A DNA stretch of 64,000 bases. Source: Pisolithus tinctorius (Eukaryota > Basidiomycota > Agaricomycetes > Boletales > Pisolithaceae). Within the stretch, counting starts at the first letter, position 1, and the number at the start of each line of letters is the position of its first letter. Below the pieces are notes generated by a model that had not been told where the DNA came from, ran no database searches, and was given only the letters and a program-made list of their open reading frames with translations. The DNA lies in NCBI GenBank assembly GCA_024663395.1, contig JANFAH010000017.1, positions 1,116,001 through 1,180,000 on the forward strand, read 5' to 3'. A program made the position numbers and the translations under genes. This document shows positions 32,545 through 62,070 of the stretch, piece after piece.

Positions 32545-33669
32545 TCATTTGCGGAATATACTCTCTCCAAAGCTGGTGCCGTTGATGTCACTCCCAGATC
32601 CTCCGGTAGCGTTTTCATCGGCAGGTATGACTTTACTACTCAACAGCCCTCTGCGCGCAGGGTCGCAGTCGCCTTCTCCTTCGTTGATTCCTTCCCCCTT
32701 GCCGATGCAGAAAGGAACGGGGACAGCACCTCCGAGCTCATCACACTCTGGATTGGTGCAATTATCGCACCCGTATCTTTCACTTGCACCCTCTACATCC
32801 TCGTACACGTCATCTCTGAACGTATTCTCAGCACCTCATCCGCCCCGATCTTCATACTGCCGCGTATCCAACCCAGTCCCTCTTGTCGAGTACGATTCAT
32901 TGTTGCTCTCACCACCACGTTTCTCTCGTTCACCTGGGTTATCAGATGGTGGAGCTGACGCACATAAGCTTCATCACCGGCGTCGTCTCTCGTTCACCGG
33001 GGTTATCAGATGGTGGAGCTGACACACATAAGCTTCATCATCGGCGTCGCGCATTTTCGCCTGTGCGCTCAGAGAGCATTACCTCATCGGCCAGAATGCG
33101 GAATACCATGGATGCGTTGGCTTGTCTAGAAGGTAGGGAAGATCGGGATTGCAGGGCCGTGTGTGTGGAAATGGACATGGACGCAGAGAGAATAACTTCA
33201 TGAGTATGGGGACGGCGAGAATGAAGAAGGCGACGGCGAGAGCAACCGACAGAATATAATTGTTACTCGCCCTGGAGTGGAGAGATGCGGCTTGCGCCGA
33301 CTATTTGTGTTGGGGGGGTGGGCTCGATGGCGGACGTCGAGGAGGAGGGAGCTGAGGAAGAGCAGAGCGCTCCCAATTCTTCGTGTCTCTTCGTGAGCGA
33401 CAAAGTACGGCCTGGACTAGCCAATAATCAGTGCAGCTGGAAACGACTCTCGCTTTCACCTGCATAATATGCGCCGTTATTTTCACTGGGGACGACGCTG
33501 GTTGTTGAGCCGCGAGCAGTTCGTCACTTCCCGCCATGCCGACCTCAGCCCCCGATGCATCCTTGCTTGTAGGTAATGTTGTTGGAGCTTCACCTGCCTC
33601 CACGGTCATCTCTCCCGGACGCAAACGACGGTATACGCCTATATCACAGTTTCTTCTGCGTAGTTTCAT
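32545..33669 (-). CDS. Possible single-pass membrane protein, uncertain
   Basis: On the minus strand, 33,262-33,200 encodes a clear hydrophobic span ('YILSVALAVAFFILAVPIL'). It is preceded by a Pro-rich segment (33,345-33,301) and by 33,669-33,400 (Arg/Ser/Ala-rich), and followed downstream by an acidic open frame at 32,808-32,545. The pieces are in different frames and no intron set joins them cleanly. This could be a decayed one-TM protein or chance; the membrane span is the only solid sign. Confidence 0.3.
32924..33051. repeat. Tandem duplication, two 64-bp units
   Basis: 32,924-32,987 and 32,988-33,051 are near-identical (each starts TCTCGTTCACC and contains GGTTATCAGATGGTGGAGC). 64 is not a multiple of three, so the duplication shifts any frame through it. 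Confidence 0.85.
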
Positions 33670-34885: not shown

Positions 34886-37800
34886 ATGGCTCCTGGATGG
34901 TTCGAGCCATTGTGTTGTATTCGGCAGCTGCCTTCACCGAGCGACGACACAATTGTTCCACGAATTCCTGCTCCCGTTGGAACTGCTCAGCCCCCAGCCA
35001 GTACAGACACCCATGTCCCTGCACTGACTGAGGTTCCTGTCGAAGTCTCAGGCTCTCCCTCAACCGATATTGGGGGTGTTCGTGCTGCCACGGTAGTCGA
35101 AAACTCTCACCCACGTTCTCTGGACTCTAGCTGTAGCGACATGGGCATTCCCGTTCCTGCCTCTACTCAAGGTGGTTGCACGTGTTCTTTATGTGCCATT
35201 TAGTGTACTGAGTTACTTGGCCAGGTTCTCCGTCGAACGATACAGGTGGTCTTGCTCCTGCACTAATCGAGGTGCAACCCACGGGTCTACCTTCTTCGCA
35301 AGAGAGTGCGGATACTCCTGTTCTTGCACACACCGAAGCAGTACCCATGAGTAAGCATTGTACTTGCGACGAAGGGGACTAGTCTAAGAACGTTAATGAT
35401 TAGTACCAACTTCCGCGCGCCCTAGATTTTGCTTGGATCCCGCGAAAGCTAAAGAGCACATCGATGGCATTGATCGCTTTCGCATTCTTGTTATGGGCAG
35501 AGCCAATGCAGGTAAAACAACAATCCTGCAGAGGGTCTGTAATACTACAGATCAACCAGAAATCTTTAATGGAAAAGGAGAGAAGGTGTGTATATTTCAC
35601 CGTATTTATCCGAGATTCACGATGTGTCGGGCTATATTCAGGTGGATGCTACTGTGGTGCAGGGTTCACTAAAGGTGAAGTGACTTCATGAATATCCTGC
35701 AGCTTATGTCGAAAGGTTGAATGTATCCAGCGTGGCTACCACAACATCGAGGATGAGCTGATTTTCAAGAGTAATCCACGCTTTGTATTCCATGACTCAC
35801 GTGGATTTGAGGCTGGAAGTGAAGGGGAGTTTGACGTGATGAAGGAATTTGTGATGGATCGTGCCAAGACAACGAAGCTTGACAAGAGAATCCATGCCAT
35901 ATGGTAGGGACACTATGTCTGACACCCTAACTAAAGTGACATGGTTTTGGTGATGAATTTAGGTTTTGCATTCCTTTGCATGACAGCCACAGGATGGTCA
36001 CTGCTGCAGAGAAGAAGTTGTTTGATGAGTGTGATACAGGGCATGGTGTGTATATTGACCATACTCTATTTGACATGTGTAAATTTCAGTGTTTTTGGGA
36101 TAGTTCCTGTGATTGTATTGCTAACAAAAACAGATACCTTGGCATTGGATGCTTTCATGGAGCTCATGGATGATGGTTTGGATGAAGATGATGCAATGGA
36201 AAGGGCTGCGGAGGTGGAGAGAAGGAATTTGAACAAGTGTCTTGTGATGGTCAAGGGTTGGTTGGATAAGTTAAGGTTTCCTCCACATGACTATCTGTCA
36301 CTCACTGGTCAGTATGCTAACCTCCACCTGAGAATGGAATGCTCTGATAGAAAATGACTGCAGGAATGCAAGAAGAGAATGCAGATTGTACAGCCCTACT
36401 GACATGCACTGTGAATGCTTTGAGTGAGGAAGGACTGCAGCAGCTCCTCATATCAACACAGCAATCAAATCTGGGACTGTGTATGGAGTTTGCAATAACA
36501 AAGTAAGTAATACAGCTGAAGGATAAGAATGTACTAATGTGTCCAAGGACATTGAAGAAGTGCATGTGTGATGTGGTTGGCAAGGTTACACAAGCAGTTC
36601 TTGCATATCACCTCTCAAGATGGTTTCCCTATGTAAGGAGATAGTGAGTAGATTGGAGGAGATACTGATTTTTGAACAGGATGTGTGTGAATTTGTAAAG
36701 AAAATCAGACATAATGAATACTAATGGGGCTGGGTTTTGGGTGGATAGCATGTGAGCAGATCTAGTGCTGGAGGTTCGGGAAGCATTCTGACCATGTTCA
36801 CTCCCACCCTGTTGGACTTGCATTAATAGAGAGTGAGTGGAGCCATGGGAGGTGGTGGAAGCATTCTGACCATGTTCACTCCCACCCTTTTGGACTTGTG
36901 TTCATAGACAGTGAGTGGAGCCATGGCAGGTGGTGGAAGTGTTCTGACCATGTTCACTCATACCCTTTTGGACTTGCATTCATAGGTTGTGAGTGGAGCC
37001 ATGGGAGGTGGTGGAAGCATTCTGACCATGTTCACTCCCACCCTTTTGGACTTGCATTCATAGTTGGTCAGTGGAGCCATGGGAGGTGGTGGAAGCATTC
37101 TGACCATGTTCATTACACCCTTTTGGACATGCATTCATAGTTTGTGAGTGGACACATGGGAGGTGGTGGAAGCATTCTGACCATGTTCACTCCCACCCTT
37201 TTGGACTTGCATTCATAGATTGTGAGTGGACCCATGGGAGGTGGTGGAAGCATTCTGACCATGTTCACTCCCACCCTTTTGGACTTGCATTCATAGGATG
37301 TGAGTGGAGCCATGGGAGGTGGTGGAAGCATTCTGACCATGTTCACTCCCACCTGTTTGGACTTGCATTCATAGAGAGTAAGTGGGGCCTTGGCAGGTGG
37401 TGGAAGCATTCTGACCATGTTCACTCCCACCTGTTTGGACTTGCATTCATAGAAAGTGAGTGAAGCCATGGCAGGTGGTGGAAGTGTTCTGACCATGTTC
37501 ACTCTCACCCTTTTGGACTTGCATTCATAGCCTGTGAGTGGAGCCATGGGAGGTGGTGGAAGTGTTCTGACCATGTTCACTCCCACCCTTCTGGACTTGC
37601 ATTCATAGTTGGTCAGTGGAGCCATGGGAGGTGGTGGAAGCATTCTGACCATGTTCACTCCAATCCTTTTGGACTTGCATTCATAGGGAGTGAGTGGAAC
37701 CATGGCAGGTGGTGGAAGCATTCTGACCATGTTCACTCCCACTCTTTTGGACTTGCATTCATAGATTGTGAGTGAAGCCATGGGAGGTGGTGGAAGCATT

Positions 37801-40291
37801 CTGACCATGTTCACTCCCACCCTTTTGGACTTGCATTCATAGGCTGTGAGTGATGCCATGGAAGGTGGTGGAAGCATTCTGACCATGTTCACTCCCACCC
37901 TTTTGGACTTGCATTCATAGGTTGTGAGTGGACCCATGGGAGGTGGTGGAAGCATTCTGACCATGTTCACTCCCACCCTTTTGGACTTGCATTAATAGAG
38001 AGTGAGTGGAGGCATGGCAGGTGGTGGAAGCATTCTGACCATGTTTACTCCCACCTGTTTGGACTTGCATTCATAGGGAGTGAGTGGAGCCATGGCAGGT
38101 GGTGGAAGCATTCTGACCATGTTCACTTCCACCCTTTTGGACTTGCATTCATAGCCTGTGAGTGGAGCCATGGGAGGTGTTGGAAGCATTCTGACCATGT
38201 TCACTCCCACCCTTTTGGACTTGCATTCACAGGTTGTGAGTGGAGCCATGGGAGGTGGTGGAAGCATTCTGACCATGTTCACTCCCACCCTTTTGGACTT
38301 GCATTCATAGGGAGTGAGTGGAGCCATGGGAGGTGGTGGAAGCATTCTGACCATGTTCACTCCCACCCTTTTGGATTTTCATTCATAGGATGTGAGTGGA
38401 GCCATGGGAGGTGGTGGAAGTATTCTGACTATGTTCACTCCCACCCTTTTGGACTTGCATGCATAGTTGGTCAGTGGAGCCATGGGAAGTGGTGGAAGCA
38501 TTCTGACCATGTTCACTCCCACCCTTTTGGACTTGCATTCATAGACAGTGAGTGGAGCCATGGGAGGTGGTGGAAGTATTCTGACCATGTTCACCCCCAC
38601 CCTTTTGGACTTGCATTCATAGCCTGTGAGTGGAGCCATGGGAAGTGGTGGAAGTATTCTGACCATGTTCACTCCCACCCTTTTGGACTTGCATTCATAG
38701 GGAGTGAGTGGAGCCATGGGAAGTGGTGGAAGCATTCTGACCATGTTCACTCCCACCCTTTTGGACTTGCATTCATAGTTGGTCAGTGGAGCCATGGGAG
38801 GTGGTGGAGGCATTCTGACCATGTTCACTCCCACCCTTTTGGACTTGCATTCATAGCCTGTGAGTTGAGGCATGGCAGGTGGTGGAAGCATTCTGACCAT
38901 GTTCACTCCCACCCTTTTGGACTTGTGTTCATAGGTTGTGAGTGGAGCCATGGGAGGTGGTGGAAGCATTCTGACCATGTTGACTCCCACCTGTTTGGAC
39001 TTGCATTCATAGGGAGTGAGTGGAGGCATGGCAGGTGGTGGAAGCATTCTGACCATGTTCACTCCCACCCTTTTGGACTTGGATTCATAGTTTGTGAGTG
39101 AAACCATGGGAGGTGGTGGAAGCATTCTGACCATGTTCACTCCCACCCTTTTGGACTTGCATTCATAGCCTGTGAGTAGAACCATGGGAGGTGGTGGAAG
39201 TATTCTGACTATGTTCACTCCCACCCTTGTTGACTTGTATTCATAGCCAGTGAGTGGTGTTGTAACAAGTGGAGTTGGAGTACTATGTACTGACCTTGTT
39301 TACTGCCAATGTGGCTTTGGGTTCCTAGCTTGTGAGCAACTCATGGCATGTCTTGCTGGATATCTGCTGACCATTTCCATTTCAAATCTGATATGTTTTT
39401 GGTCATAGGATGTGAGTTTCATTCAGGGTCACTGATCATGTTGTTGATATTACATAAACAGATTGTGAGCTTAATTGATGTATCCATTCCAAATTCACAT
39501 TTTACAATATCTCAGGATGTAGGTCAACATTCCCATGAGGTTTCAATTTGACCTATATATCACTATTACTTCTATCAGCATGTCAGTCATCATCTTTTGG
39601 AATTATTTCCCATGCTAATATATGGTGTAGAATGTGTGTATTCATTTTTTTTTCTAAATTCATATCATGATCTCTGATAATGATTGTAGTTGGTTTGTAG
39701 TTGGTTTGTGGCCCTGTTTCTCATCAGTGTTACCTGATATGGTCCCATCACATATTGCTCAGGTGGTCAGTTTTATCTTCTTTCTTCCTGCCATTGACCA
39801 ATCACCTGACTTGACCACATCATAGCCTAACATCACTAATATCTCCCATCTTCTCCAAATACCTGCTTTGGCCACCTCACAACAACCTTCAATGCAATCT
39901 ATTGCAGAACATGGCATTGGTAGTTGATATCTTGTCATGATTTGACAACCATAACCCCAATTGCAGGTGCCATACTTGTGTTCGAATATTTGTACTTGTT
40001 GCAGGCCCACAAATCGAATTGTGATTTCCAGGCAGACCTTGAACTGGCTGTCAAAACATATCAAACATCAGGTGTCCAAGCTAATGTTGTCAAACTTCTC
40101 ACAGCAGCATTTCAGCAACATAGTGATGATGTGGAAGCTTTAACCCCCATCCTTGTAGGTATTGCAAAGGAAAATCAGATGTGTAAGACACCATTTCCTC
40201 ATCACCAATCAACCTCTTTCTTACTTGTATTTGCATTAGCAAAGATGAAATAAGGGGAGATATTTTTCAAGTTTTACTGAGCCTGCTGTGA
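34886..40291 (+). CDS. GTPase with microexon-encoded variable segment
   Basis: Predicted 603-residue protein. Exons: 34,886-35,171; 35,225-35,350; 35,404-35,585; 35,642-35,674; 35,731-35,903; 35,963-36,049; 36,090-36,307; 36,364-36,502; 36,548-36,632; about 41 three-base exons between 36,749 and 39,765; 39,826-39,919; 39,967-40,180; 40,240-40,291 (TGA). All junctions are GT-AG and phases agree throughout. Residues 1-137 are Ser/Thr/Pro-rich and disordered. The GTPase has the P-loop GRANAGKT (169-176), DSRG (231-234) and TKTD (308-311). The G domain ends before 'AYHLSRWFPY' (434-443). Residues 444-484 come from microexons. The C-terminus has a hydrophobic stretch ('GAILVFEYLYLLQ') and ends 'QVLLSLL'. 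It belongs to the broad TRAFAC/AIG1-like P-loop GTPases; its role is unknown. Exons 1-3 retain CpG, the rest is CpG-poor yet intact. Confidence 0.85.
36633..39825 (+). repeat. Array of intron repeats separated by 3-nt microexons
   Basis: From 36,830 to 39,249, 32 variable triplets recur every 78 bp (one interval is 77). Each is preceded by an acceptor (usually CATAG) and followed by a donor (GTGAGT, or GTCAGT). The 75 bases between are conserved, with a CTGAC branch-like site about 38 nt before the acceptor. The first triplet (CAT, 36,749-36,751) follows a distinct 116-nt intron with a TACTAAT branch site. After the array, eight diverged introns of 49-108 nt continue the same AG-NNN-GT pattern (triplets at 39,329, 39,409, 39,462, 39,516, 39,579, 39,631, 39,690 or 39,701, and 39,763). 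Array codons: GGA x5, CCT x5, GTT x4, TTG x4, AGA x3, ATT, GAT, ACA and TTT x2 each, AAA, GCT and CCA once each. No stop codon occurs. Splicing is inferred, not shown. Confidence 0.85.
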
Positions 40292-41882: not shown

Positions 41883-42409
41883 TGTCAAGTACAAGGATTG
41901 TCCGGGTTGAGTCCGGACCGGAGACCGAAGCGGGTGCGAAGCCGGGGGGTCGGGGTCAGGGGTGAAGTCGAGGATGCAGATGTTTGGACTGTTTGGACTT
42001 AGCGACTGAGGATACAGCGCTATTCCCTTGCGTGGGTCTCAGTCCGAGTCCGAGGCCGAGACGGGGTTATCAGGAGATACTTAGTTGATTTCAGACTGAA
42101 GTCTACAGGCCGAGTATCTACGAGCTTATATACTAGAGTAGCTATAGTACGGAGACCGGTAATGCCGGTCTCGCAAGGATTGCTAAGAGGATTGGTAAGA
42201 CAAGGATTACTAACGTATGACTAAGGTATCGGAGACCGGGACAGGTGGACCGGGGACAGGACCGGGGACAGGACTTAACCGAAATGACAGACACTGCAAA
42301 GCAGTGTCTACCGCGCTAGACCAACTGGAGGTACGGGACTGGCGAGGCCGAGGCCGGACTGAGTGAGTGCGAGGCCGAGTCCAGCCGGAGTCGAGGCACA
42401 ACTATGACA
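41883..42409 (-). repeat. 3' LTR of G1
   Basis: Plus strand starts TGTCAAGTAC and ends ACTATGACA; 527 bp. Matches the G2 LTR at 58,162-58,690. It contains 'ACTGCAAAGCAGT', a short hairpin, at about 42,292-42,305. Confidence 0.85.
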
Positions 42410-42426
42410 GTATCCCCCTCTTAGGG
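42410..42426 (-). other. Polypurine tract of G1
   Basis: Reading on the minus strand, CCTAAGAGGGGGATAC lies directly before the LTR start TGTCATAG. This is the plus-strand DNA priming site and fixes the element's orientation. Confidence 0.7.
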
Positions 42427-42546
42427 GTCGAACCCATGAGACCCCTGCGAGAGTGGTGGGCTGAGTCCGAAAGTTGGCTGAGTTCGAAAAAATGATACTT
42501 GTGGCCCGCTAAGCCCTTTGCGTCTTTCTTTCTCATCCTAACCATC

Positions 42547-43640
42547 ATGTCTGACTCAAGGCCGATCACTGCGACAGACAAGAACGACGAAGGCCGGGTC
42601 GTCGTCGACTGGACCCAGGTGTCGGACGACGCCATTCGATATGACACCGACGACGAGGAGGAAGTGATGAAGGCCAAGTCGAAGGAAAGGAAGCGGCGAA
42701 AGGCGGCAGAGCAAGCCCGGCGGGAAGAGCAGGCACGACTGGAGGCCGAGAGAGTGGAGAGGGAGCGGATTGAGGCCGAGAGGGCTGAGAGGGAGAAGGT
42801 CGAGGCTGAGAAGGTAGCGCGAGAGGCCGAGGAGAGGAGAGCGCGCGAAGAGGAGGAGAGGCGGAAGGCCGAGCGCAAGCGCAAGGCCGAGGCTGGCAAG
42901 AGTGATGAGGCCGGCGCTGGGGGCGCTAGTGGTGAGGCCGGGGGCGAAGTTAAGAGGGTGGTAATGGACCCTGGGTGAGTATTTTCTCTTAACACCCGCA
43001 CTCTCTTCGTCTAACATCCTTTAGCTGTACCCGTTGCACCCGGGCGCAGGTCGCCTGCGAGTTCCTCGTAGATGGCAACAAGAAACGGGTTGCCTGCGTC
43101 CGCTGCAACCTGTCCAAGGGAAAATGCCGGTGGCCCGGGGACGGGAAGGACGTCGAGGCCGGCCCCAAAGCCGCTACCAAGGCTGACAAGGGGAAGAAAC
43201 GGAAGGCCAACGAGGGGTCGCCTGAGCCTGGGCCCAGCCAGAAGAAACGGGCGAAGTCGAAACCGACCGAGGTGCTAGAGATCGACGAGCCCGAGGCCGG
43301 TGGGAGCGGGGAGAGGGAGGCCGGCGCCGAAAGGTACTCGGGCTTGGAAAACAAGCTCGAGCGACTGATCGAGGCCGCGGGGCTGATTGCCAACAATCTG
43401 GCCAGCCTTTTCGAACTTCATGAAACCGCGGTCGAGAATTCAGGCCGCATAGCCGACGCGCTCGAGTCACTACTTGACGAGTCCTACGGTTTCGGCATGG
43501 CGGTCTCCCCTTCGGACTCGGGCTCATCTGAGCTCGATTCCGAAGAGCTGCGCGAGGAGGCCGAGTGGCTGAGGACCCATGGTGAGGACGAAGAGGAGGA
43601 GACCGAGGGAGAGGATGAGGCCATGGCCGAGGGCGAGTAG
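42547..43640 (+). CDS. Antisense accessory gene of G1: coiled coil plus Zn2Cys6-like cluster
   Basis: Encoded opposite to gag-pol, between pol and the 3' LTR. Exon 1 is 42,547-42,974, exon 2 43,025-43,640; the intron is GTGAGT...TTTAG and joins in frame. Exon 1 gives 'MSDSRPITATDKN' and a long Arg/Glu/Ala helix (about residues 45-120) likely to form a coiled coil. Exon 2 opens with a six-cysteine cluster, CTRC then C six residues on, a 12-residue loop, CVRC, six residues, C, the spacing of fungal Zn2Cys6 DNA-binding clusters. Then a basic Lys-rich region, an amphipathic helix ('YSGLENKLERLIEAAGLIANN') and an acidic C-terminus. Both G1 and G2 keep it open, so it is probably selected. A regulator of the element or host is an inference. 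Confidence 0.75.
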
Positions 43641-45678
43641 TACCTTAGCGTAGGCTTGTAGTTTTTTCCTTCTGCCAATGTCACGTATCCGGTGTCCGGT
43701 GTCCGACGTTGTACAGTAGAGCAAGAAAAACAAGAAGGGGAAAACAAAGTAAGTAAGAGATCAAAGAAAACTAGATACGATAGAAACAGAAACAGAGACT
43801 GAGGCTGGTTGAGACCGGTCCTCATTGGTATGGGCCGGGTTTACCGGGGTAGAGAGAATGGAATTCTTGTACGAGTTCAGACGCGTTGTCCAGCTCTGTA
43901 GCAAGTACCCAAGTGGTCTCTTCATCGGTCCCCTCGTAGCCGGTCCACCGGACTAAGTATTGAAGCCAACACCGGCGACACTGGTCGACCTTAGAGTCAA
44001 GGATTTCCGCTACCTCGAACTCTAGATCACCGTCGACTTCGACTGGTGGGGGTGGTGGTTGAGTCCGGTTCGGGATGGTATTAGGGATGGCCGGCTCGAG
44101 TTGGGAAACGTGGAAGACCGGATGTACCGTGCGCATTGAGTCCGGCAGGCGCAGTGTGAACGAGTGGGTACCGGCCTGAGCTATGACCGGATACGGCCCA
44201 AGGTTTTTCTCCGAGAGCTTCTTGGAAGGCCGGGTAGACCGGAAGTACCTGGCTTTGACATATACTTGGTTGCCGACTTTGAAGTCCGGAGCCGGCATGC
44301 GTTTAGCATCGGCCGGTCCTTGATAGCGCTGCTGTGCGAGGGTCATTTCCTCCCGTAGGTATTGATGCAGTGAGTCTAAGTCGACTGCATAGTCACGAGC
44401 CCGAGCGGAGGTGAGGTCGCGCTCCGGGTACACTGAGATGTTAGGGTGATAGCCCTTATTAGCGAAGAAGGGTGAAACACCGGTAGTAGCGCTAGGGGCA
44501 TTGTTGTAGGCGAACTCGGCCAAAGGTAGTAGGTCGGCCCAATTATCCTGCTGGTAGTTGCAGTATACTCGGAGGTATTGCTCAAGAGTTTGGTTAGTCC
44601 GCTCGGTCTGGCCATCACCTTCGGGGTGGTAGCCCGAGGTGAAATGTAAGCGCATATCTAGGGCCTTACCGAGTGACCGGAAGAAGTGGGAGACGAACTC
44701 CGAGCCTCGGTCTGAGGTTACATGGGCCGGTACTCCGTGCTTCGAAAAGACATGGAGTAGGAATAACTTGGCGAGTTCTGGGGCTGTGATAGTGTCGTGG
44801 GTGGGGATGAATATGGCCTGCTTGGAAAGCCGGTCAACTACAACGAGGATGGCCGTGAAGCCGGTTGAGGCCGGAAGCTGCTCAATGAAATCCATAGAGA
44901 TGGAGTTCCACGGCTTCTCCGGTACCAGGAGTTGCTTCAGGAGGCCGTAAGGCCGATGGCGGGGAACCTTAGCCCGAGCACAGGCCGTGCAAGACCGGAC
45001 ATAATCTTTGACAAATGTCCTGAGGCCGGGCCAGGTGTATTCACGCTGTATAAGTTCCAGTGTGCGGTTTTGGCCAAAGTGGCCAGATAGGGGGTGGTCA
45101 TGCTTGAGGCGCAAGACCCTAAGGCGAAGGTCGTTTGAGTCCGGCACGTAGATCCTTCCATCAAGCCGAAGGAAGCCGGTGTCATCTACTGACCACCGGG
45201 GATCAGACATGTCGGAGAGACGGATTTGTGAGACCGGGTCGTCCGGCAGTGCGGTCAGGATATCACTATGAAGTTTCTCTATATCCATCAGTGCGACTGC
45301 TCGTAAGACCGGGTATTCGAGGTAGGTTGCGCGAAGGGAGACCGCTAGCTGTTCCTGGGTGAACACCGGTCTCAGGTTTTGCGGGTTCACTCGGGCATAG
45401 CCGCTATCCCCCTCTTTGGGGTAGACATCCCATCATCTAGTCAGGGCGTCGGGCTTAGCCCCGAGCTTACCGGGCCTGAATCTGATGATCATATTAAACT
45501 GAGAAAGGAATTCCGACCAGCGAGCTTGGCGGCGGGTGAGTTTAGGCGCCGTTCACCCTGCGAATGCGAAGTCCAAGTTTTCGACTTCAGCTTCGGTTAA
45601 GAGGCTCACATGATGTGAACTGTCACGTGCATCCACCTGAGGTACAAACCATTGTCACCCGGTTACTACGATCATCGA

Positions 45679-46935
45679 ATGTCTGGCTCATCTGCGGGAT
45701 CAACCCGCTCGTTGCGCTCGCACGGCCTTACGATCAATCCTCTAGACCCGCGGAACCCCCTGCCTCCACCCAGGACTCGCAAGAAAGCTGCGGTATGGAC
45801 AACAGAGGAGGAAGGCGCGTTATTGGATTTCTTGGCCTCTCATCTTTCACAGGCCGGCGATGGGAACTTTAAGAAGGCTACGTGGAACGCCGCAGCAGCC
45901 CACATGGCTCATAATCATCCACCAGGTCCAGATAACGGCGATAAGACAGCTGAATCGTGTGAGCGGAAGTTCAAGGCGGTAAGTCGTCGTATCATTCTTT
46001 TTTTTTGCCTTGCTAACAATTATCCAGCTTAAAAAATCCTACTATGCCGTCGCCGATCTTAAATCGGTGGCCTCTGGCTTTGCTTATGACGACGAGCACG
46101 GTGCGATGATCTCACTGGACAACGCCGATCTTTGGGATCGGTATGTAAAGGTAATGTAGTTTTTTCCTTGTCGGATCATCCACTAACATCTAGTCAGGCG
46201 CACAAAGACGCGAAGCCGTTTCGCAATTCCGGGTTCCCCCACTTCGCCAGCGTCGAGCTCCTTCTCCCCTCGCACGGCCGAGGTCGGTTTATCTACCAGC
46301 CACACGCCACTACCGCGCCTTGTACAACCACGACCTCTGCCTTCGATACTCCTGCCTCTACCGCACCCCCCACCGCTTCGACCATCCCTACCCCCCCTCC
46401 CTCCCTCTCCCTCCTCGACATGACGCACGCTCTCAACGCTCACCGTCGTGAGGACACGCAGTCCGTGGATCCGAACTCCATCCCCCCTTCCGCACCATCA
46501 AGTTTTTTGTCGCATGCGTCAGCTGGGTCGTCGTCGTCATCGGCCGTCACCAGCATCAGTCGCGGAAAAAGGAAAGCTGAGTCCGTTGCGATGTCCGAAG
46601 GTGGATCGAAGCGCTCTCGGCCCCCGTCGGCCAAAGCGCGCGCTGAAGAAGATCGCAGTTCATTCATCGCCGCCATCACCTCCAGGCTCGATAATTTCAC
46701 GCACGCGATCGCTGCCCCATTGCCCCCGCCACCCACTACCAATCCCCTCGTCGACGCTGCCATGGACTACATCAACAGCATGCCGCAGCTCTCGACAGAC
46801 GATCGGATCGACATCGGCAACTACTTCCTCAGCGTGACCCCGGATGAAGTGAACATTTTCCTCAAGCATCAGGAGCCGGCGAAGCAGATTTGGGTGCAGC
46901 GTCGGCTGATGAAGTACCAGGATGGGCAGAGATAG
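45679..46935 (+). CDS. Harbinger ORF1, Myb/SANT-like DNA-binding protein
   Basis: In PIF/Harbinger elements a Myb/SANT-like partner helps the transposase bind the ends and enter the nucleus. Exons 45,679-45,978, 46,028-46,150 and 46,198-46,935 join in frame to 386 residues. The N-terminal third has the trihelix/Myb pattern 'AVWTTEEEGALLDFLASH', 'NFKKATWNAAAAHM', 'KTAESCERKFKALKKSYYAV' and 'WDRYVK'. A Pro/Thr/Ser-rich linker and a basic cluster ('RGKRKAE', 'GSKRSRPP', a likely nuclear signal) follow, then a helical C-terminus ('RSSFIAAITSRLDNFTHAI') that may contact the partner. CpG-rich and intact. Confidence 0.85.
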
Positions 46936-46944
46936 GTGTTCGTC

Positions 46945-47060
46945 TTGTTTTTTTTTTTTACAATATACAAATGTACCCCCCCCCCCCCTGCATATCCTTT
47001 CAAGTCCCCCCCCCCCCCCCTTTATACAAACATGTACATAATAAAATGTACATGACTATG
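46945..47060. other. Homopolymer tracts between the two Harbinger genes
   Basis: A T-tract, then runs of 13 and 15 C bases at 46,976-46,988 and 46,996-47,010 lie between the convergent 3' ends. The base composition of the element changes here. Confidence 0.75.
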
Positions 47061-47158
47061 ACTAGCTTCCTATTGAGAATGGAAGTTATTTTTCTACATG
47101 AGTGTGAAACAATTGTAAGAACATATATTTGTACACCATGAAATCTGAATGTTCAGGC

Positions 47159-48471
47159 TCAGAGAAGGCCCCTAATTGTAAGCTGGTGCTGATAGTCAAT
47201 CCACATCTCCTCTGCAATGTTGTCACGCCTATTATCAGCCCTTCTCCTCTCTGCAGCATCTGCTGGTCCATCACCAAGGCTTCCAACACCATCATCCTCT
47301 CCTATGTCCATGGCAAGTTCAGGGTCAAAGAACTCTTCTGGATCATAGCGCCGTATGAAATTGTGGAGGGCACAGAGAGCAGCAGGTACTTGAGTTTGGG
47401 TGTGGATGCTATATTCAGGGGGAATTTGAAGAATCCTCCACCTGCGTTTTATAACACCAAATATCCATTCAATGGCATTTCTAAGTCCAGCATGGCGAAG
47501 GTTGAATAACTCCTCTCGGTTTTGAGGTCTATAAAATAGAAGTTACAGGTACACTGAGCAGAATGGAATAGCAACTTACCTTAATCCAGCCTGGCGCCAT
47601 TCTTTCAGATGGTAACAAACACCTCGATAGGGAACCAGAAGTGCATCACAGGTCCCAAACCCTGCATCTGCAAGAAGGTACTTCCCAGGTGGCATGTGCA
47701 AGTCATTCCTGTGTGCATCATGCCACATGGTTGCATCTGCAGTTGACCCATCAAAGCCAGTGAGGGCATATGTGAAGAAGAAGTCAAAATCACAGATGAA
47801 GAGACAGTTTTGAGATAGGTAGCCCTTCCGGTTCCTCATGTAAGGCTGGTCCTCAGCAGCAGTGAATGCTCGAATATGAGTGCCATCAACTGCACCAATA
47901 CAATCCTGGAAAAATCGGAAGCGTGGGTCACTAGTAATCATAGTTGATATGGGAGTGTTGTTGGTGGGGAATTGCACTTGGGATGCATAGAATTGTCCCC
48001 CAGAAAAGAAAGCCAACATTGCTTTGAAATATCTAAAAAATTGTGAGAAAAATATCAGACAGTCCAATGAACTCCCTACCTAGTGATGGTCCCTGGTGAG
48101 TGCTGGAACCTCTCAGCAACATGCCGGGATGACAACCCAGTAACACAGGTGTAGAGGAATATCCCAAGTTGTTCCTCCACAGAAACTCCATTGCGAGAAG
48201 GCACAAAACCATGATGGGTGAGCACCTGCATCAGGTGATCAAAAACCCCATGGCTGACACCAAGGCAAGTCCGTATCCTGTCTGGATGACCATTCAGGAG
48301 CTCTAGCATCCACCCCTCACCAGTCAGGATTGAGGTATGGTAGGGGATTGGTTCTGAGTCAGAATGAAAAAGGAGGTCATAGAGGCATAGCACCTGGATC
48401 ATCACTGCTACTACAAGTGCAGCAAGACGGCGACGACGATGGTGCTGGAGCTGCTGTGCTTCAAGATCCAT
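47159..48471 (-). CDS. Harbinger DDE transposase
   Basis: Cuts and joins the element ends. Exons read leftwards: 48,471-48,080, 48,032-47,580, 47,528-47,159; introns have GTAGGG and GTAAGT donors and TTTTAG and TATAG acceptors. The joined frame is 404 residues with no stop. The N-terminal part has the helix-turn-helix-like 'VSVEEQLGIFLYTCV...RHVAERFQHSPGTITRYF'. The catalytic triad of the DDE_Tnp_4 fold is visible: Asp in 'CIGAVDGTHI', Asp in 'LLADAGFGTCDAL' and Glu in 'NAIEWIFGVIKRRWRIL'. Length and motifs fit an active enzyme. It is CpG-poor yet undamaged, unlike the dead elements around it. Confidence 0.92.
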
Positions 48472-50684
48472 AGCAGAGTTGTTTGATCTGTTATCACAAT
48501 GTTATCTATTGAACTACAAGTTGTGTTGTTGTCTTATATAATCATCACATGACTACATTACTAAAGCAGAAGGCCAAAACTTGGACTTTGCATTTGCACG
48601 AGCGTGCACAGCTTATATAATCATCACGTGACTGCATTGCCGAAGTCGAAGTCGAAGTTTTTGACTTCGACTTCGGAGGGTGAACGGCGCCTTAGAGGTG
48701 GAGAAGTACTCGAGGTTCTTGTGGTCGGTAACAACGTCGACCGGTGAGGCCGAGCCCTCAAGGTAGTGACGCCAGGTCCGGAATGCTTCAAAAATTGCAA
48801 GCAATTCCTTATCATGGGTGTCATAATTCAATTCCGGGGCCGTCAGAGTCCGGGAGTAGAATGCGACCGGATGTATTTGGCCGTCGCCGCAGGTAATGGA
48901 AAGGATGCCAGCGATGGCATAGTCCAAAGCATCGGTCTCGACGGTGATAGGAACCCCAGGGATGAAGTGGGTTAAGACCGGCGCGGTGGTGAAGGCGGCC
49001 TTGAGGTTGCTGAATGATCGGTGGCACTCCTCAGAGAAGTTCCAAGGAGCCCCCTTACAGGTAAGCCAAGTCAGTGGCACAACGATGTCCGAGTAGTTGA
49101 ATATAAAACGGCGGTAAAAATTGGCGAAGCCGAGGAAAGACTGAATGTCCTTGACCTTGCGAGGCTCAGGCCAGTCGCAGATGGTCTGGACCTTTTCCTT
49201 GGACATCATGAGGCCGGCAGGGGAGAGGTGGAACCCAAGGTATTCGACCGAGTCCGAGTGGAACTCGCATTTCTCCGGCTTCGCATAAAGGCCGTGAAGC
49301 CGAAGCCGGCGGAGGACTTCTCGGACATGCTGCTTGTGAGACTCCTTATCTCCGGAGTAGATCAGGATGTCATCTAAGTAGACGACCACACATACATCCA
49401 ACATATCCGCGAAGATAGTGTTGACGAAGCGCTGGAAAGCGGCCGGGGCATTGGTGAGGCCGAAAGGCATCACTAACCACTCGTATGATCCATACCGAGT
49501 CCGGAATGCGGTCTTCCATTCATCGCCCGGGGCAATCCGGACGAGATGGTAGGCATGCCGGAGATCAATCTTAGTATAGATTTTTGCTCGGCTGGGTGAG
49601 TCCAAGAGGTCGGAGATGAGTGGTAGCGGGTATCGGTCTTTCTTAGTGATCTTGTTGAGGCCGCGGAAGTCTACACAAAGCCGGAGGGAGCCGTCCTTCT
49701 TTTTGACAAAGAGGACCGGTGCAGCATAGGGGGAGGAGGTAGGCCGAATGAATCCGGTAGTAAGGTTTTCATCGATGAATGTCCGGAGAGCTTGGAGCTC
49801 AACCAGGGACAGCGAGTAGATGGTGCCGAGAGGCGGGGTAGTTCCTTCTTCAAGCTCTATTTTCAGGTCGTACTCCCGGTGTGGTGGGAGTGCCGAGGCC
49901 TTGGCCTTGCTGAATACATCAGCGAAGTCATGGTACTCTTCCGGGACATTGGGTAAGGCCGGAGGAGGGGAAGCTGAGGCCGATCGGGCTTGAGCTGAGT
50001 CCGAGGGACGGAGCTGAAGTTGGAATTGGACGGACCCTTCTAGTTTGCAGGCGCGCACAAAGGCGGCTGCATTGATGAGGGAAACAAGAGGGGCTTTCAG
50101 AGGGGTGCGAGCCGGGGAGTCGGAGACCGGTACAGATGGCACGAGGCCGGGTTGGTCACTAGGACCGGGGTCAGGAAGGCCGGTGGAGACCGGGCTTACA
50201 GGGGGTGTCGACGGGGTTGGCATTTCTTGTGCAGGAGTCCAGAATGTTAGACTGCCCAATACCCAATCAATCAACGGATTGTAGCGGGTGAGCCAGTCAT
50301 GTCCGAGGACTATTCTACACTCAGAATCCAACGGGGCTAGATACAGGGTTACCGGGGTGACATCGCCGGACGTGAAGCGGATATTGACATCTACTGCCTG
50401 GGTTATAGTGAAGGTGGACGTTCCATCGAAGAGCCGGAGTCGGATTGGTGAGACCGAGTAAGGGGTAAACGAGTGTTGATTAACAAACTGATTATCTATA
50501 AAACAATGGGTGGAACCGGAGTCCACTAAAGTACGAAGCCGAGGTATTTCTGGGTTTTCTATAGTGACATACGGGGTCAAGGAGTTCGGACTGGAAAGAG
50601 CGGACACGTTGAGATGAGCCTCCAAGTTTGCACAACCGGAGTCAACGCAGCTCCCAGATTGTGCGGAGTCCTGGGAGCCGCTAC

Positions 50685-51438
50685 CTATTTTTTTGTCTCG
50701 GGGGTAGTACCCGAGCCTGAGGCCGGTGCGGCCTCGGTGGTGGCCGCAGTGCGAGCTTTGGCCTTTCCGGCTTTCTTGGGGCATTTGTCAGCAAAATGAC
50801 CGGACCCTCCGCAGAACATGCAGAGGTTTCCGTCTAGGCGACGCTTGCGTTCCTCGGGGGTAAGCTTTCCATCTTTGCCGAGTTTGCTAGGCTCGGGTTT
50901 GGACGAATTGCTGTTATTATTGTTGCCCGGCTTCGATGAAGCCGGCTTAGGGGAAGAACCGGAGTTGTTATTGTTGTTGCCGGTCTTGGATTTATCTTGA
51001 CCGGTCTTAGGCTGGTTGTTGTTGCCGGAACCGCCGGACTTGTTGTTACTAGACGAGCCTTGGTGCTTACTCGCCCGTTGGACCTCTTCCTTGTGCTCCC
51101 AATAGCGCGCATCTATTTCTTGGGCGAGGTGGTGGAGCTTGTGAAGTGTCCGGGGTGTGCCAACCCGGCAGACCTCATCCTTGATTCGGTCTGGGAGGCC
51201 GGAATAGAAATGATGGCGCAGCACACCGTCACCGTAGCCTCGGACTTGCGAAGCAAGCCGATTAAAGTCAACTACGTACTTATTAATGCGCTGACTTTCC
51301 TTCATGTGTAGATGGTCAAGCTGACTCTCGGCGTCAGCGACCGGGTCGTGGGGGCCGAAGGTGGTTTGCAGCTCTAGGACGAACTCCCTCCAGGAGTCCA
51401 TCCAAAGAGGCCGGTCATCGGGGTCGTCGAGCCCGAGT
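50685..51438 (-). pseudogene. Gag of G1, N-terminally truncated
   Basis: Contains the gag core from 'GLDDPDDRPLWMDSWREFV' to the CCHC knuckle 'CMFCGGSGHFADKC' and ends at 50,685, as in G2. Upstream of 51,438 the sequence switches to LTR, so about 200 N-terminal residues are lost and the open frame runs on into LTR sequence. Confidence 0.85.
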
Positions 51439-51634
51439 CGTATGACTAAGGTAACGGAGACCGGGACAGAGTGGACCGGGGACAAGACCGGGCGAGGACT
51501 TAACCGAAGTGACAGACACTGCAAAGCAGTGTCTACCGCGCTAGACCAACTGGAGATACGGGATTGGCGAGGCCGAGGCCGGACTGAGTGAGCGCGAGGC
51601 CGGGTCCGGCCGGGGTCGAGACATGGCTATGACA
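51439..51634 (-). repeat. Truncated 3' LTR of G2
   Basis: Matches 58,494-58,690 from CGTATGACTAAGG to GGCTATGACA; joined on its left directly to G1 gag. Confidence 0.85.
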
Positions 51635-51651
51635 GTATCCCCCTCTTAGGG
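51635..51651 (-). other. Polypurine tract of G2
   Basis: Same CCTAAGAGGGGGATAC (minus strand) abutting the LTR as in G1. Confidence 0.7.
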
Positions 51652-51771
51652 GTCGAACCCATGAGACCCCTGCGAGGATGGTGGGCTGAGTCCGAAAATC
51701 GGCTGAGTTTGAAAAACCGATACTTGTGGCTCGCTAAGCCCTTTGCGTCTTTCTTTCACATCCTATTCATC

Positions 51772-52859
51772 ATGTCCGATTCGAGGCCGATCAGCGCGAC
51801 TGGCAATAACGACGAAAGCCGAGTCGTCGTCGACTGGACCCAGGTACCGGACGACGCCATCAGGTATGACACCGACGACGAGGAAGAAGTGATGAAGGCG
51901 AAGTCGAAGGAAAGGAAAAGACGAAAGGCGGCTGAACAAGCCCGGCGCGAAGAACAGGCGCGGCTTGAGGCCGAGAGGGTGGCGAGGGAGCAGGCCGAAG
52001 CCGAGAGGATAGCGCGGGAGGCCGAGGAGCAAAGGGCACGCGAGGAGGAAGAGAGACGCAGGGCTGAGGAAGAGAAGGAGGCCGAACGTAAGCATAAGGC
52101 CGAGGCCGGGAAGAGCAGTGAGGCCAGGGCCGGTGGTAATGAGACCGGGAGTGAGGTGAAGAAGGTGGTGATGGATCCCGGGTGAGTGGTTTTCTCAACC
52201 TTGTGTGTATCCTCTTTGACAACCTTTTTAGCTGTACCCGCTGTGCCCGGGCTCACATCGTCTGCGAATTTGTCGTGGACGGTAATAAGAAACGCGTCGC
52301 CTGCGTGCGATGCAACCAATCGAAAGGCAAGTGTCGGTGGCCTGGGGATGGGAAGGATGCCGAGGCCGGTCCTAAGGCCGCCCTCAAAGCCGACAAGGGG
52401 AAGAAGAGGAAGGCGGACGACGAAACGCCCGAGCCCGGGCCTAGCAAGAAGAAGGCGAAGGCCGTTGAGAAGCCGCTGGAGGTGCTGGACGTCGATGAAG
52501 ACGAGGCCGGTGGGAGCAGACCGAGGGGGCCCGGTGCGACAGCATTCTCGGGCTTGGAAGACAAGCTCGAGCGCTTGATCGACGTCGCGGGACTTATCGC
52601 GAATAACCTGGCGGGTCTCTTCGAAGCCCATGAGACCGTGGCCGAGAACTCTGGTAGGATCGCCGACGCGCTTGAGGCGATGCTCGACGAGTCCTACGGC
52701 TTCGGGATGGCGGTGTCGCCCTCGGACTCGGGCTCGTCTGAGCTCAACTCCGAAGAGCTGCGCGAGGAGGCCGACTGGCTGAGGGCCCATGGCGAGGAAG
52801 AGGAGGAGTCCGAGGGGAAGGACGAAGGGGAGGACAAGACCATGGCCGAGGCCGAGTAG
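51772..52859 (+). CDS. Antisense accessory gene of G2: coiled coil plus Zn2Cys6-like cluster
   Basis: Homolog of the G1 gene with the same intron position: exon 1 51,772-52,181, exon 2 52,232-52,859. It starts 'MSDSRPISATGNN', followed by a 'DTDDEEEVMKAKSKERKRR' segment, the Arg/Glu-rich coiled coil, the six-cysteine cluster (CTRC...C...CVRC...C), a basic Lys-rich part, an amphipathic helix ('FSGLEDKLERLIDVAGLIANN'), a conserved 'LDESYGFGMAVSPSDSGSSEL' and an acidic tail. Differences from G1 are spread out but spare the cysteines. It converges with pol, whose 3' end is 170 bp away, so transcripts from its own promoter would be antisense to the 3' end of the element's RNA. Confidence 0.78.
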
Positions 52860-53027
52860 CTTGTAGCGCAGGCCTTGTAGTACCTTCCTCTGCGAATGAC
52901 ATGTGTCCGGTGTTCTATAGTACAGTAAGAGAAGACAAGAAAGAGAAAACAAAGTAAGTAAGAGATCAAGAAAACTAGATACCGATAGAAGACAGAACAG
53001 AGAACTGAGGCCGGTTGAGACCGGTCC

Positions 53028-56000
53028 TCACTGATATGGGCCGGGTTTAGCGGGGTAGCGGGAGTGGAACTCTTGTACGAGTTCAGAGGCATTGTCTAGT
53101 TCAGTGGCGAGTACCCAAGTAGTTTCTTCATCGGTCCCCTCGTAGCCGGTCCACCGGACTAAGTATTGAAGCCAACAGCGGCGTCGCCGGTCGACCTTAG
53201 AGTCGAGGATTTCTGCTACCTCGAACTCTAGATCACCATCGACTTCGACAGGTGGAGGTGGTGGTTGAGTCCGGTTCGGGATGGTGTTAGGGACGGCCGG
53301 CTCGAGTTGGGAAACATGGAAGACCGGGTGGACTGCGCGCATTGAGTCCGGCAGGCGCAGTGTGAATGAGTGGGTACCGGCCTGAGCTATGACCGGATAC
53401 GGTCCAAGGTTCTTTTCCGAGAGCTTCTTGGAAGGCCGAGTTGACCGGAAGTATTTGGCTTTCACATATACCTGGTCACCGACCTTGAAGTCCGGAGCCG
53501 GCATGCGTTTAGCATCGGCCGGTCCTTGGTAGCGCTGCTGTGCTAGGGTCATTTCTTCCCATAGGTATTGATGCAGTGAGTCTAAGTCGACTGCATAGTC
53601 ACGAGCCCGGGCGGAGGTAAGATCGCGCTCCGGGTATACTGAAATGTTGGGATGGTAGCCCTTGTTAGCGAAGAAGGGTGAAACACCGGTAGTAGCGCTA
53701 GGGGCATTGTTGTAGGCGAACTCGGCCAGAGGTAGTAAGTCAGCCCAATTGTCCTGCTGGTAGTTGCAGTACACTCGGAGGTATTGCTCGAGAGTCTGGT
53801 TAGTCCGCTCGGTCTGGCCATCACCTTCGGGGTGGTAGCCCGAGGTGAAATGTAAGCGCATATCCAGGGCCTTACCGAGTGACCGGAAGAAGTGGGAGAC
53901 AAACTCCGAGCCTCGGTCTGAGGTTACATGGGCCGGTACTCCGTGCTTCGAAAAGACATGGAGTAGGAATAGTTGGGCGAGTTCTGGGGCTGTGATAGTG
54001 TCGTGGGTGGGGATGAATATGGCCTGCTTGGAAAGCCGGTCAACTACAACAAGGATGGCCGTGAAGCCGGTTGAGGCCGGAAGTTGTTCGATGAAATCCA
54101 TAGAGATAGAATTCCATGGTTTCTCCGGCACCGGAAGTTGCTTGAGAAGGCCGTAAGGCCGATGGCGGGGAACCTTAGCCCGAGCGCAGGCCGTGCAAGA
54201 CCGGACATAGTCCTTGACGAAGGTCCTGAGGCCGGGCCAGGTGTACTCACGCCGTATGAGTTCTAAAGTGCGGTTTTGGCCGAAGTGGCCGGACAGAGGG
54301 TGGTCATGCTTGAGGCGCAAGACCCTAAGGCGGAGGTCATTTGAGTCCGGCACGTAGATCCTTCCATCAAGCCGAAGGAAACCGGTGTCATCTACTGACC
54401 ACCGGGGATCTGATATGTCGGACAGGCGGATTTGTGAGACCGGGTCGTCTGGCAGTGCGGTCAGGATATCATTATGAAGTTTCTCGACATCCATTAAGGC
54501 AACTGCTCGTAAGACCGGGTACTCTAGGTAAGTTGCGCGGAGGGAGACCGCTAGTTGCTCCTGGGTGAAGACCGGTCTCAGATTTTGCGGGTTCACTCGG
54601 GCATAGCCGCTATCCCCCTCTTTAGGGTAGACGTCCCATCGTCTAGTTAGGGCGTCGGGCTTAGCCCCGAGCTTACCGGGCCTGAACCTGATGATCATAT
54701 TAAACTGAGAAAGGAATTCCGACCAGCGAGCTTGGCGGCGGGTGAGTACTTTAGAGGTAGAGAAGTACTCGAGGTTCTTGTGGTCGGTTACAACGTCGAC
54801 CGGTGAGGCCGAGCCCTCAAGGTAGTGGCGCCAGGTCCGGAATGCTTCGAAAATAGCAAGCAATTCCTTGTCGTGAGTATCATAATTCAATTCCAGGGCC
54901 GTCAGAGTCCGGGAGTAGAAAGCGACCGGATGTATCTGGCCGTCGCCGCAGGTGATAGAAAGGATGCCGGCGATGGCGTAGTCCGAAGCATCGGTCTCGA
55001 CGGTGATAGGAACCCCGGGGATGAAATGAGTTAAGACCGGCGCAGTGGTGAAGGCGGCCTTGAGGTTGTTGAATGACCGGCGGCACTCCTCGGAGAAGTT
55101 CCAGGGAGCCCCCTTGCGGGTAAGCCGAGTCAGCGGTACGACGATGTCCGAGTAATTAAAGATAAACCGGCGGTAGAAGTTGGCGAATCCGAGGAAAGAC
55201 TGAATGTCTTTGACCTTGCGAGGCTCAGGCCAATCGCAGATGGTCTGGACCTTTTCCTTGGACATCGTGAGGCCGGCAGGGGAGAGGTGGAATCCGAGGT
55301 ATTCGACCGAGTCCGAGTGGAACTCGCATTTCTCCGGCTTCGCATAAAGGCCGTGAAGCCGAAGCCGGCGGAGTACCTCTCGGACATGCTGCTTGTGAGA
55401 CTCCTTATCTCCTGAGTAGATCAAGATGTCATCTAGGTAGACGACCACACAGACATCTAACATATCCGCGAAGATAGTGTTGACGAAGCGCTGGAAGGCG
55501 GCCGGGGCATTGGTGAGGCCGAAAGGCATCACTAACCACTCGTAGGATCCATACCGAGTCCGGAAGGCGGTCTTCCATTCATCGCCCGGAGCAATCCGGA
55601 CGAGATGGTAGGCATGCCGAAGATCAATCTTAGTGTAGATCTTGGCTCGGCTTGGTGAATCTAAGAGGTCGGAGATGAGCGGTAGCGGGTATCGGTCCTT
55701 CTTAGTGATTTTATTCAGGCCGCGGAAATCTACACAGAGCCGGAGGGAGCCGTCCTTCTTCTTGACAAAGAGGACCGGTGCAGCATAAGGGGATGAAGTC
55801 GGACGAATAAATCCAGTAGTAAGGTTTTCATCGATGAATGTCCGGAGAGCTTGGAGCTCAACCGGGGACAGCGAGTAGATTGTGCCGAGAGGCGGGGTTG
55901 TTCCTTCTTCGAGCTCTATCTTTAGGTCGTACTCCCGGTGTGGCGGGAGTACCGAGGCCTTGGCCTTGCTGAATACATCAGCGAAGTCATGGTACTCTTC

Positions 56001-56684: not shown

Positions 56685-56743
56685 GTTTGCACAACCGGAG
56701 TCAACGCAGCTCCCAGATTGTGCGGAGTCCTGGGAGCCGCTAC

Positions 56744-58123: not shown

Positions 58124-58161
58124 GATGGTTTAGACCCACACAAGTGGCGAGTCTGAAATAC

Positions 58162-58690: not shown

Positions 58691-58749
58691 ATATCGATCT
58701 CTCTGAGTCCATATTCTATTCATTATTGCAAAGGCATTGTTAGCCTGAC

Positions 58750-61690: not shown

Positions 61691-62070
61691 AGCATCCATT
61701 TCAACAAACTCACTGTTTCCACCTGAACCTGCTGATACCAGTCATCTGGCAGTCAATCGCTTGGGTTGTTGGCCTGCTGCAAAGCATATGTGAACCATCT
61801 AAATCAGACACTGATGTATTGGATTATCATGGAGAGGTAGGATAGATTAGTGGTCCTGACATCCATGGTGATTTGGAGTAGAGTTGGATTGGGTGAAAAT
61901 GTTATTACATAGCAATGTGGCTGACACATGTGATGACTGCAAGATAAGAGATCATCAATAATCACATCCCAGGAGGCCAGAACAGCAAGTGGCCTATCCT
62001 GGTGCAGTGGTTGTCATGAGCCAAGTGGCTGGATATCAATCTGAACAATGCTGATGATGCGACCGTAGTG
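61691..62070. other. Gene-free interval
   Basis: CpG-poor; nothing recognised. Confidence 0.3.

Follow-up and report, generated by a model that had tools for sequence, protein, structure and literature searches.

Analysis of a 64,000-nucleotide stretch of the Pisolithus tinctorius genome (hereafter the window; positions 1116001-1180000 of contig C17, in an assembly of 92.5 Mb and 221 contigs) revealed a gene for a putative GTPase in which the region 36,633-39,825 consists of 42 triplets separated by short sequences with full splice signals. With a probability of roughly 0.88, we consider that these triplets are spliced as one-codon exons, whose codons would together make up a hypervariable linker joining the GTPase domain to a C-terminal helical domain. 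For the window's own gene in this agaricomycete of the order Boletales, the one-codon-per-exon reading is a prediction, and it is supported because the frame is continuous, the triplets include no stop codons, their length is fixed at 3, the same exons flank the row in 14 loci, and a deposited protein (P0020) threads 44 such exons. The first-pass annotation of this DNA had known of no description of a gene with such a row of one-codon exons, and none was found in a full-text literature search, with bioRxiv and most subscription journals lying outside its coverage.

The row of triplets in the window and its paralogs

The region is built around a tandem array (36,779-39,257) with a period of 78 bp, 31.8 copies, 91% match and 0% indels. 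From the GT at 36,633 up to the AG preceding position 39,826, 42 consecutive AG-NNN-GT triplets were located, two ahead of the array, 32 within it and eight beyond it, which translate as DHRTVLFIDRKPLGIAVRGPVGDLTPGLPVGFPPLDIDHNLV; the predicted one-codon segment is thus 126 nt long and reads GATCATAGAACA... from its start. The first-pass annotation had proposed about 41 microexons and a segment of 41 residues assembled codon by codon; the unbroken row was confirmed and the reading of one codon per exon was supported, whereas the count and the length had to be raised to 42, since GAT at 36,680-36,682 had been overlooked. It had correctly placed 32 triplets in the 78-bp array (36,830-39,249), with the other 75 bases resembling an intron (donor, CTGAC branch site and CATAG acceptor), as well as eight more triplets after the array (39,329-39,765), and a lone 77-bp unit in which the intron is altered and the triplet unchanged. 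The introns around the eight post-array triplets are 49-79 nt. Over 30 window units, column entropy was 1.90, 1.88 and 1.35 bits at the three triplet positions and averaged 0.18 bits in the other 75 columns. CTGAC occupied the branch position, and the GT and AG columns were invariant, an invariance which in the chain introns is partly built in, as GT and AG were demanded by the rules of the chain search. It was also noticed that all four TTG triplets of the array (37,064-38,781) precede a GTCAGT donor and the other triplets a GTGAGT or GTAAGT donor, a local linkage of codon and donor, and that an 11-bp direct repeat (TTGTAGTTGGT, 39,684-39,709) doubles one acceptor-TTG-donor site, the extra 11 bp being absent in 13 aligned paralogs.

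The chain was sought by dynamic programming, with introns of 44-125 nt and exons of a fixed length k. Random sequence had been named in the first-pass annotation as a control for the pattern; under the same rules, no complete chain was obtained in 200 dinucleotide shuffles of the stretch or in 129 other 3,193-nt stretches of the window, nor in 200 shuffles each of the paralogous loci L035 and L040 (0 of 600 shuffles over the three loci). The window and 13 further loci of the 78-bp type, 14 in all, were then read with different values of k. At k = 3 a chain was present in 13 of the 14, with lengths of 12 to 89 codons, ten of them without a broken unit and three (L036, L039 and L042) via one stand-in node each, whereas none was found in any locus at k = 0, 1, 2, 4, 5, 6, 8 or 9 and two (L032 and L039) had one at k = 7, with scores lower than at k = 3. 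One donor GT was changed to AT in L039 and one acceptor AG to GG in L042, each at the cost of one unit, and the remainder of the chain would still be in frame; in L036, one triplet was short by one base and the ordinary exons were broken too. The locus that gave no chain, L038, has an unrelated insertion of about 700 bp in one array intron.

Some of these loci have peculiarities of their own. The insertion in L038 (contig C111, sense strand, about 3,525-4,240) is flanked on both sides by CATTCAT and is probably a mobile element. L036 (C4:8,000-17,999) and L033 (C29), near contig starts, are 99.2% identical; small deletions disrupt ordinary exons of L036, which would thus be either a dead duplicate or an artefact of assembly. 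In the array of L042, three 55-bp units and one 54-bp unit, with introns of 51-52 nt, lie amid the 78-bp units, and the exons are still 3 nt, which suggests that a shortening of the intron is tolerated. Across loci, the array introns range from 51 to 78 nt and are alike in sequence.

The surroundings of the arrays were likewise shared. Upstream, an exon ending in WFPY and followed by GTAAG was found in all 14 loci, and a simple motif scan detected a P-loop about 1.3 kb ahead of the array in 12 of them; downstream, all 14 aligned with one another, first over common one-codon exons and then over the same ordinary exons. In a sister branch the repeat unit measures 80 bp, and most of the introns are 77 nt long. 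In this branch, chains at k = 3 comprised 52 (L044), 38 (L045) and 41 (L047) codons, with none at k = 2, 4 or 6; L046, a poor stretch, gave 38 codons at k = 3 with three weak nodes, and L048, in which the downstream anchor was not found, stood outside the chain analysis.

In the genome, the 78-bp unit had at least 792 BLAST matches, the unit core 545 matches at three mismatches or fewer, and the P-loop exon of the GTPase type 138 matches. The exact pattern TTCATAG-NNN-GTGAGTGGAG occurred at 1,061 genome sites and at none when the pattern was read backwards; the same signals were 0-2 nt apart at seven sites. Six of these seven lie within 1 kb (C167:42,031-42,957), where an array may have decayed or a copy been badly assembled. 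When gaps of 0-60 nt between TTCATAG and GTGAGTG were counted in 212,606 bases (the window plus L031-L048), a gap of 3 nt was found 464 times, one of 2 nt once and one of 58 nt twice, the last being an entire 55-bp unit plus the triplet. The one-codon layout is that of a gene family across the genome, shared by at least 12 sister loci, in which the conserved part is the intron and the hypervariable part is the codon.

Codon-like behaviour of the triplets and change of the arrays

No stop codon was found among 524 triplets, in which 33 codons are in use. Three nodes scoring below 4, one each from L036, L039 and L042, had been removed before this count (527 reduced to 524), as they stood in place of one triplet that had been shortened and two splice sites that had been lost. 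If the three positions were independent, 48.8 stops would be expected over 524 triplets; when triplets were counted once per locus (163, L036 left out), the expectation was 9.4 (P 6e-5). The copying of units inside an array makes this latter value the fairer of the two. A final C was also missing from all 524 triplets, as against 16.7% of 2,800 codons in the ordinary exons of the same genes, and inspection by eye of 100 of the 1,061 genome sites revealed no stop and no C-ending triplet. U1 pairing takes in the final exon base; the lack of C-ending triplets may arise because a real 5′ splice site would constrain that edge.

Divergence was counted in 10 intact paralogs (the 12 aligned paralogs minus L036 and L041). 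Their ordinary GTPase exons, with pN 0.065, pS 0.177 and pN/pS 0.37, look purified. Divergence per site was 0.137 in introns, and 0.62, 0.24 and 0.47 in the first, second (mostly CAT) and third one-codon exons, respectively. This pattern is the reverse of that in a usual gene with conserved exons and unconserved introns.

Alternatively, the repeated introns might matter as RNAs, be they small nucleolar RNAs or other intron-hosted species, and the triplets might be mere spacers. An analogue would be human SNHG14, described as having 48 tandem introns that encode SNORD115 (PMC11608373). Intron-hosted RNAs were rejected, however, since neither strand of 36,500-39,950 gave an Rfam match at E<=1; in addition, folding of two units was not unusual (z -1.3) and the triplets avoid stops, and we regard this explanation as highly improbable.

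If the array were left unspliced, it would code for tandem repeats of 26 residues with about two variable residues each, as in repeat proteins of the diresidue type. Since 78 is a multiple of three, one frame of the unit is free of stops whatever the triplet, and open stretches reach 1,051 codons in L031 and 415 in the window. This reading, which was weighed for the 1,051-codon stretch of L031, was rejected on three grounds: 1) array units whose length is not a multiple of three, 17 in number and spread over 5 of the 13 loci, shift the frame, as does one step outside the tandem array of the window, 2) the 80-bp arrays shift the frame at every unit, and 3) no frame has an excess of silent changes (N/S 0.76, 0.82 and 0.87), the third positions of the open frame varying least. 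Moreover, reading on from the GTPase exon meets a TAG at 36,642-36,644, and the deposited P0020 is spliced instead. The chance that the array is translated in this way appears to be very slight.

Comparison of units indicated how closely triplet and intron travel together (L036 was left out of these unit-pair and linkage counts). Within arrays, pairs with identical 75-nt introns shared the triplet in 22% of 304 cases, and pairs with 2-10 intron differences in 13-19%; between arrays, the corresponding values were 14% and 6-9%. Association between the letters of triplet and intron was confined to about 10 nt on either side, was weak to 20 nt downstream and was not found beyond. Such decoupling would fit frequent short-tract exchange or very fast change of the triplet. 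It would also suit an invasion by introns, in which near-identical introner-like elements had entered at every codon boundary of an older continuous exon, whose coding sequence would survive as the triplets; even where introns are identical, the triplet is scarcely tied to the intron (22% versus 13-19%), and a clear association is seen only close to their junctions. An invasion, however, would need insertion in phase 0 at every codon with none left unsplit; the repeats are in register at 78 or 80 bp, and at 2-10 intron differences triplets are shared more often within arrays than between them, as expected if units are copied whole. Between two assembled copies, moreover, three units have been cleanly lost or gained. 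These observations make an intron invasion unlikely. The two copies, L045 (C17) and L047 (C34), are identical over the 3.2 kb compared save for 239 bp, which correspond precisely to three units with their three codons, and for a 7-nt end gap that stems from the boundaries of the compared pieces; an assembly error might account for the three-unit difference.

Should the triplets be one-codon exons, as we propose, the spliceosome would excise each short intron by intron definition, and the introns would probably go one after another from the 5′ side, each joined codon serving as the exon edge for the next donor. All exons of the chain are 3 nt in phase 0, so that the frame would survive the skipping of any exon and the loss of any unit. 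The arrays have likely been lengthened, shortened and reshuffled in whole units of intron plus codon by unequal exchange and short-tract conversion; constraint on splice signals, together with homogenisation, would keep the introns alike and leave the codon free, or selected to differ.

Deposited protein models and the predicted splicing of the row

The P. tinctorius protein P0020 (BKA82DRAFT_4223615), whose gene lies at C41:51.8-56.3 kb, has 45 residues following WFPF. No exact match of eight or more residues to this tail was found in the 4.3-kb gap of the gene, whereas the tail threaded its own 80-bp array in order with 45 of 45 residues, 44 of which are single codons between AG and GT; none of 300 order-shuffled peptides threaded more than five residues. 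With P0020, a chain of this kind has thus already entered public annotation, seemingly without comment. A search with the C-terminal portion of the C41 protein listed four deposited P. tinctorius models, namely P0020, P0010, P0015 and P0011.

Two of these models gave partial matches in a frame offset by one base, with units taken from a loose motif and up to two units passable per step. In P0011, 20 residues corresponded to its own chain read in this way (200 shuffles, at most 7); in P0010, the match to its own chain was weaker, with 13 residues (shuffles, at most 9), and by locus it was weak throughout, with 13 residues in L045 (control 9), 9 in L046 (8) and 12 in L047 (10). In frame 0, at most 8 of 45 residues of P0010 were threaded in L045, L046 and L047, and 7 of 47 residues of P0011. 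Coding potential would hardly account for models in a shifted frame, whereas transcript alignment would do so more readily.

Other models bear on the row as well. P0040 (source label 'lgn') is an uninterrupted 473-aa open reading frame (ORF) on a 1,585-bp contig, whereas 12 aligned paralogs have introns in that domain. After its WFPY come about 50 array-like residues starting with K-H, and then VGGVMAGGAVC to the end, which, as compared by eye at the protein level, resembles a translated array intron from the donor to the stop at the branch site. Because its ORF is uninterrupted, we infer that P0040 comes from an RNA-derived contig with an array intron retained; with a best match of 55% it is not from this genome, and presumably belongs to another Pisolithus. 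In addition, 17 of the models listed have X-VC... after WFPY or WFPF and end soon thereafter, which reads like the first one-codon exon followed by an unspliced intron (GTGTGT in the window). These models support the first one-codon exon in several Pisolithus species and not the remainder of the chain.

Several observations weigh against the splicing of complete rows. P0020 skips two units (the first unit and one GGA unit), its 45th residue lacks the GT, and it is without the final one-codon exons (MDHDLV) and the exon that follows. P0010 and P0011 follow their chains in part and in the shifted frame, and the RNA origin of P0040 is deduced from its ORF at the level of protein. When the predicted tails of ten of the 13 78-bp loci with a chain (the window included) and of L045 were used as one concatenated query, no deposited protein was found at E<=0.001; L036, L039 and L041 were left out, the search covered residues 1-470 of the 486, and charged words of low complexity may have crowded the 7,992 candidates that were scored. 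Two models on contigs with 78-bp loci do not follow the chain either, P0026 stopping at the first chain intron (WFPYVRR) and P0060 ending inside the GTPase. In P0001, P0003, P0006, P0008, P0012 and P0015, furthermore, WFPY or WFPF is followed directly by the post-chain exon. Removal of the whole stretch would be in frame as well, and transcripts of this type may exist beside the full ones or instead of them.

The same six models show the type of junction expected if the whole 3.2-kb stretch were removed as one intron, or all small exons were skipped, the array being a decaying satellite and its triplets non-coding. The flanking exons are in phase 0, and their direct joining keeps the frame. 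Such removal would leave unexplained the lack of stops and of C-ending triplets among the 524, the strict length of 3, the invariant AG and GT around a hypervariable triplet, and the same arrangement beyond the tandem array. Moreover, P0020 follows 44 triplets in order, and P0006 is contradicted by P0004, apparently a later model of the same gene: this P. microcarpus protein matches P0006 up to WFPY and again over the 104 residues that follow an insert of 56 residues. We therefore consider it quite improbable that the stretch is merely one long intron.

Gene model, encoded protein and related systems

The predicted gene comprises 54 exons (nine ordinary, 42 of one codon and three ordinary) and 53 introns, all 53 with GT-AG ends, in a single open frame of 598 codons (Table 1). 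A GT donor, a branch site and an AG acceptor, the signals of U2-type introns, are all present in the model, on which the splicing is predicted. The N-terminus of the predicted protein reads MAPGWFEPLCCIRQLPSPSDD. As the first-pass annotation had stated, the exon ahead of the array ends in phase 0 at 36,632 (...WFPY), and the frame re-enters coding sequence at 39,826 and reaches a stop, the modelled TGA. The last five of the eight post-array triplets align in paralogs and are mostly conserved. In the last exon, the window copy and L041 lack one base relative to the other paralogs with sequence there, and the C-terminus ends early in the window copy.

Table 1. Features of the predicted gene, in window coordinates
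Feature	Position	Strand	Basis
Modelled gene, ATG to TGA	34,886-40,291	+	gene model
Exon 1, start ATG (MAPGWFEPLCC...), predicted	34,886-35,171	+	open frame, GT donor, similar to N-termini of deposited paralog models, e.g. P0060
Exon 2, predicted	35,225-35,350	+	gene model
Exon 3, predicted GTPase P-loop GRANAGKTT	35,404-35,585	+	motif, weak Pfam Arf/MMR_HSR1, gene model
Exons 4-9, predicted GTPase domain	35,642-35,674; 35,731-35,903; 35,963-36,045; 36,104-36,307; 36,364-36,502; 36,548-36,632	+	aligned in 12 paralogs
Predicted one-codon exon 1, GAT, hypervariable among paralogs	36,680-36,682	+	chain and paralog alignment
Predicted one-codon exon 2, CAT (His), same triplet in 9 of the 12 aligned paralogs	36,749-36,751	+	chain and alignment
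32 predicted one-codon exons, spacing 78 bp (one unit 77), introns of 75 nt (donor GTGAGT, branch site CTGAC, acceptor CATAG)	36,830-39,249	+	
8 predicted one-codon exons CTT GAT ATT GAT CAT AAT TTG GTG, outside tandem array	39,329-39,765	+	chain
First post-chain exon, phase 0 (PNITNISHLLQ...)	39,826-39,919	+	aligned in 14 loci
Exon of predicted C-terminal helical domain	39,967-40,180	+	alignment, structure model of homolog P0004, gene model
Last exon, TGA stop 40,289-40,291	40,240-40,291	+	gene model

Elsewhere in the window, further tandem repeats were located at 19,208-19,906 (278 bp x 2.5), 32,922-33,049 (64 bp x 2, 95%) and 62,069-62,458 (206 bp x 1.9). The G+C content was mostly 53-59% at about 42,000-59,000 (45-49% at 47,000-49,000) and 37-54% in the rest of the window.

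Pfam searches gave Arf at 22.3 bits (cut-off 22.3) and MMR_HSR1 at 20.1 bits (below the cut-off of 21.9), NCBIfam matches to the GTPase domain were weak, and septins in PDB were matched at E 0.03-0.09. From its GRANAGKTT P-loop and these weak family matches, the domain was identified as a P-loop GTPase. A structure model of P0004, made with 30 aligned homologs, had a confident G domain at about 124-405, a tail at 410-472 with pLDDT below 50 and confident C-terminal helices, and Foldseek matched it at low TM-score to dynamin-like, IRG, EHD, septin and G-alpha proteins. By analogy, the chain would encode a flexible (disordered) linker, variable in length and sequence, between the GTPase and helical domains. 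From the pattern of variation, a role of this linker in partner recognition or self/nonself recognition would be a guess.

Small exons in frame are described in other systems. The micro-exon genes (MEGs) of Schistosoma mansoni are reported to have many consecutive tiny exons, most of them multiples of three and hard to annotate automatically, with proteins that diversify by duplication and alternative splicing; exon sizes are put at 6-81 bp (3-81 in the abstract), the majority being 15 bp, with 10-20 exons per gene and introns of 0.1-5 kb (PMC10526429). Like the Pisolithus chains, these are rows of tiny exons in multiples of three that can be skipped in frame, whereas the Pisolithus chains have 12-89 exons, all of 3 nt, and what is repeated and conserved in them is the intron, mostly 75-77 nt long. 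Secretion of the protein, by way of a signal peptide at the N-terminus, is a further mark of the schistosome genes. Exon 8 of Drosophila homothorax is described as a 3-nt micro-exon formed by alternative splicing from the first 3 bp of a 48-bp exon (PMC7392893); it too is a 3-nt exon used in frame, but a single one and not dozens in a row. Introners, described as many near-identical introns per genome (PMC9860276), differ in that the Pisolithus introns are in tandem and in register in the one gene family examined. A spread of the introner type would place similar introns at new sites in many different genes, with target-site duplications or terminal inverted repeats; all 14 of the 78-bp loci read share the GTPase exon end, with 100 of the 1,061 sites listed and part of the loci read. 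In the NLR-like WD-repeat genes of fungi, repeats are kept alike by exchange and differ at defined codons. There the part that is alike stays in the protein, whereas in Pisolithus it would be spliced out and the variable codon kept.

More tentatively, it is possible that the gene family acts as a frame-proof diversity generator, in which a recognition linker is stored as an alphabet of one-codon exons, extended and reshuffled by whole codons through recombination among the intron repeats, and read by splicing in any subset in frame, such that the peptide may differ per locus and per transcript; we put this forward as a suggestion with less than even odds. Gene finders and read aligners tend to miss 3-nt exons, and other such rows may hide in deposited genomes. 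If the row is spliced as predicted, the working limit on the size and crowding of exons would be overturned, and the family would offer a natural test system for splicing by intron definition. Its protein would then evolve codon by codon, with the conserved repeat discarded at splicing.

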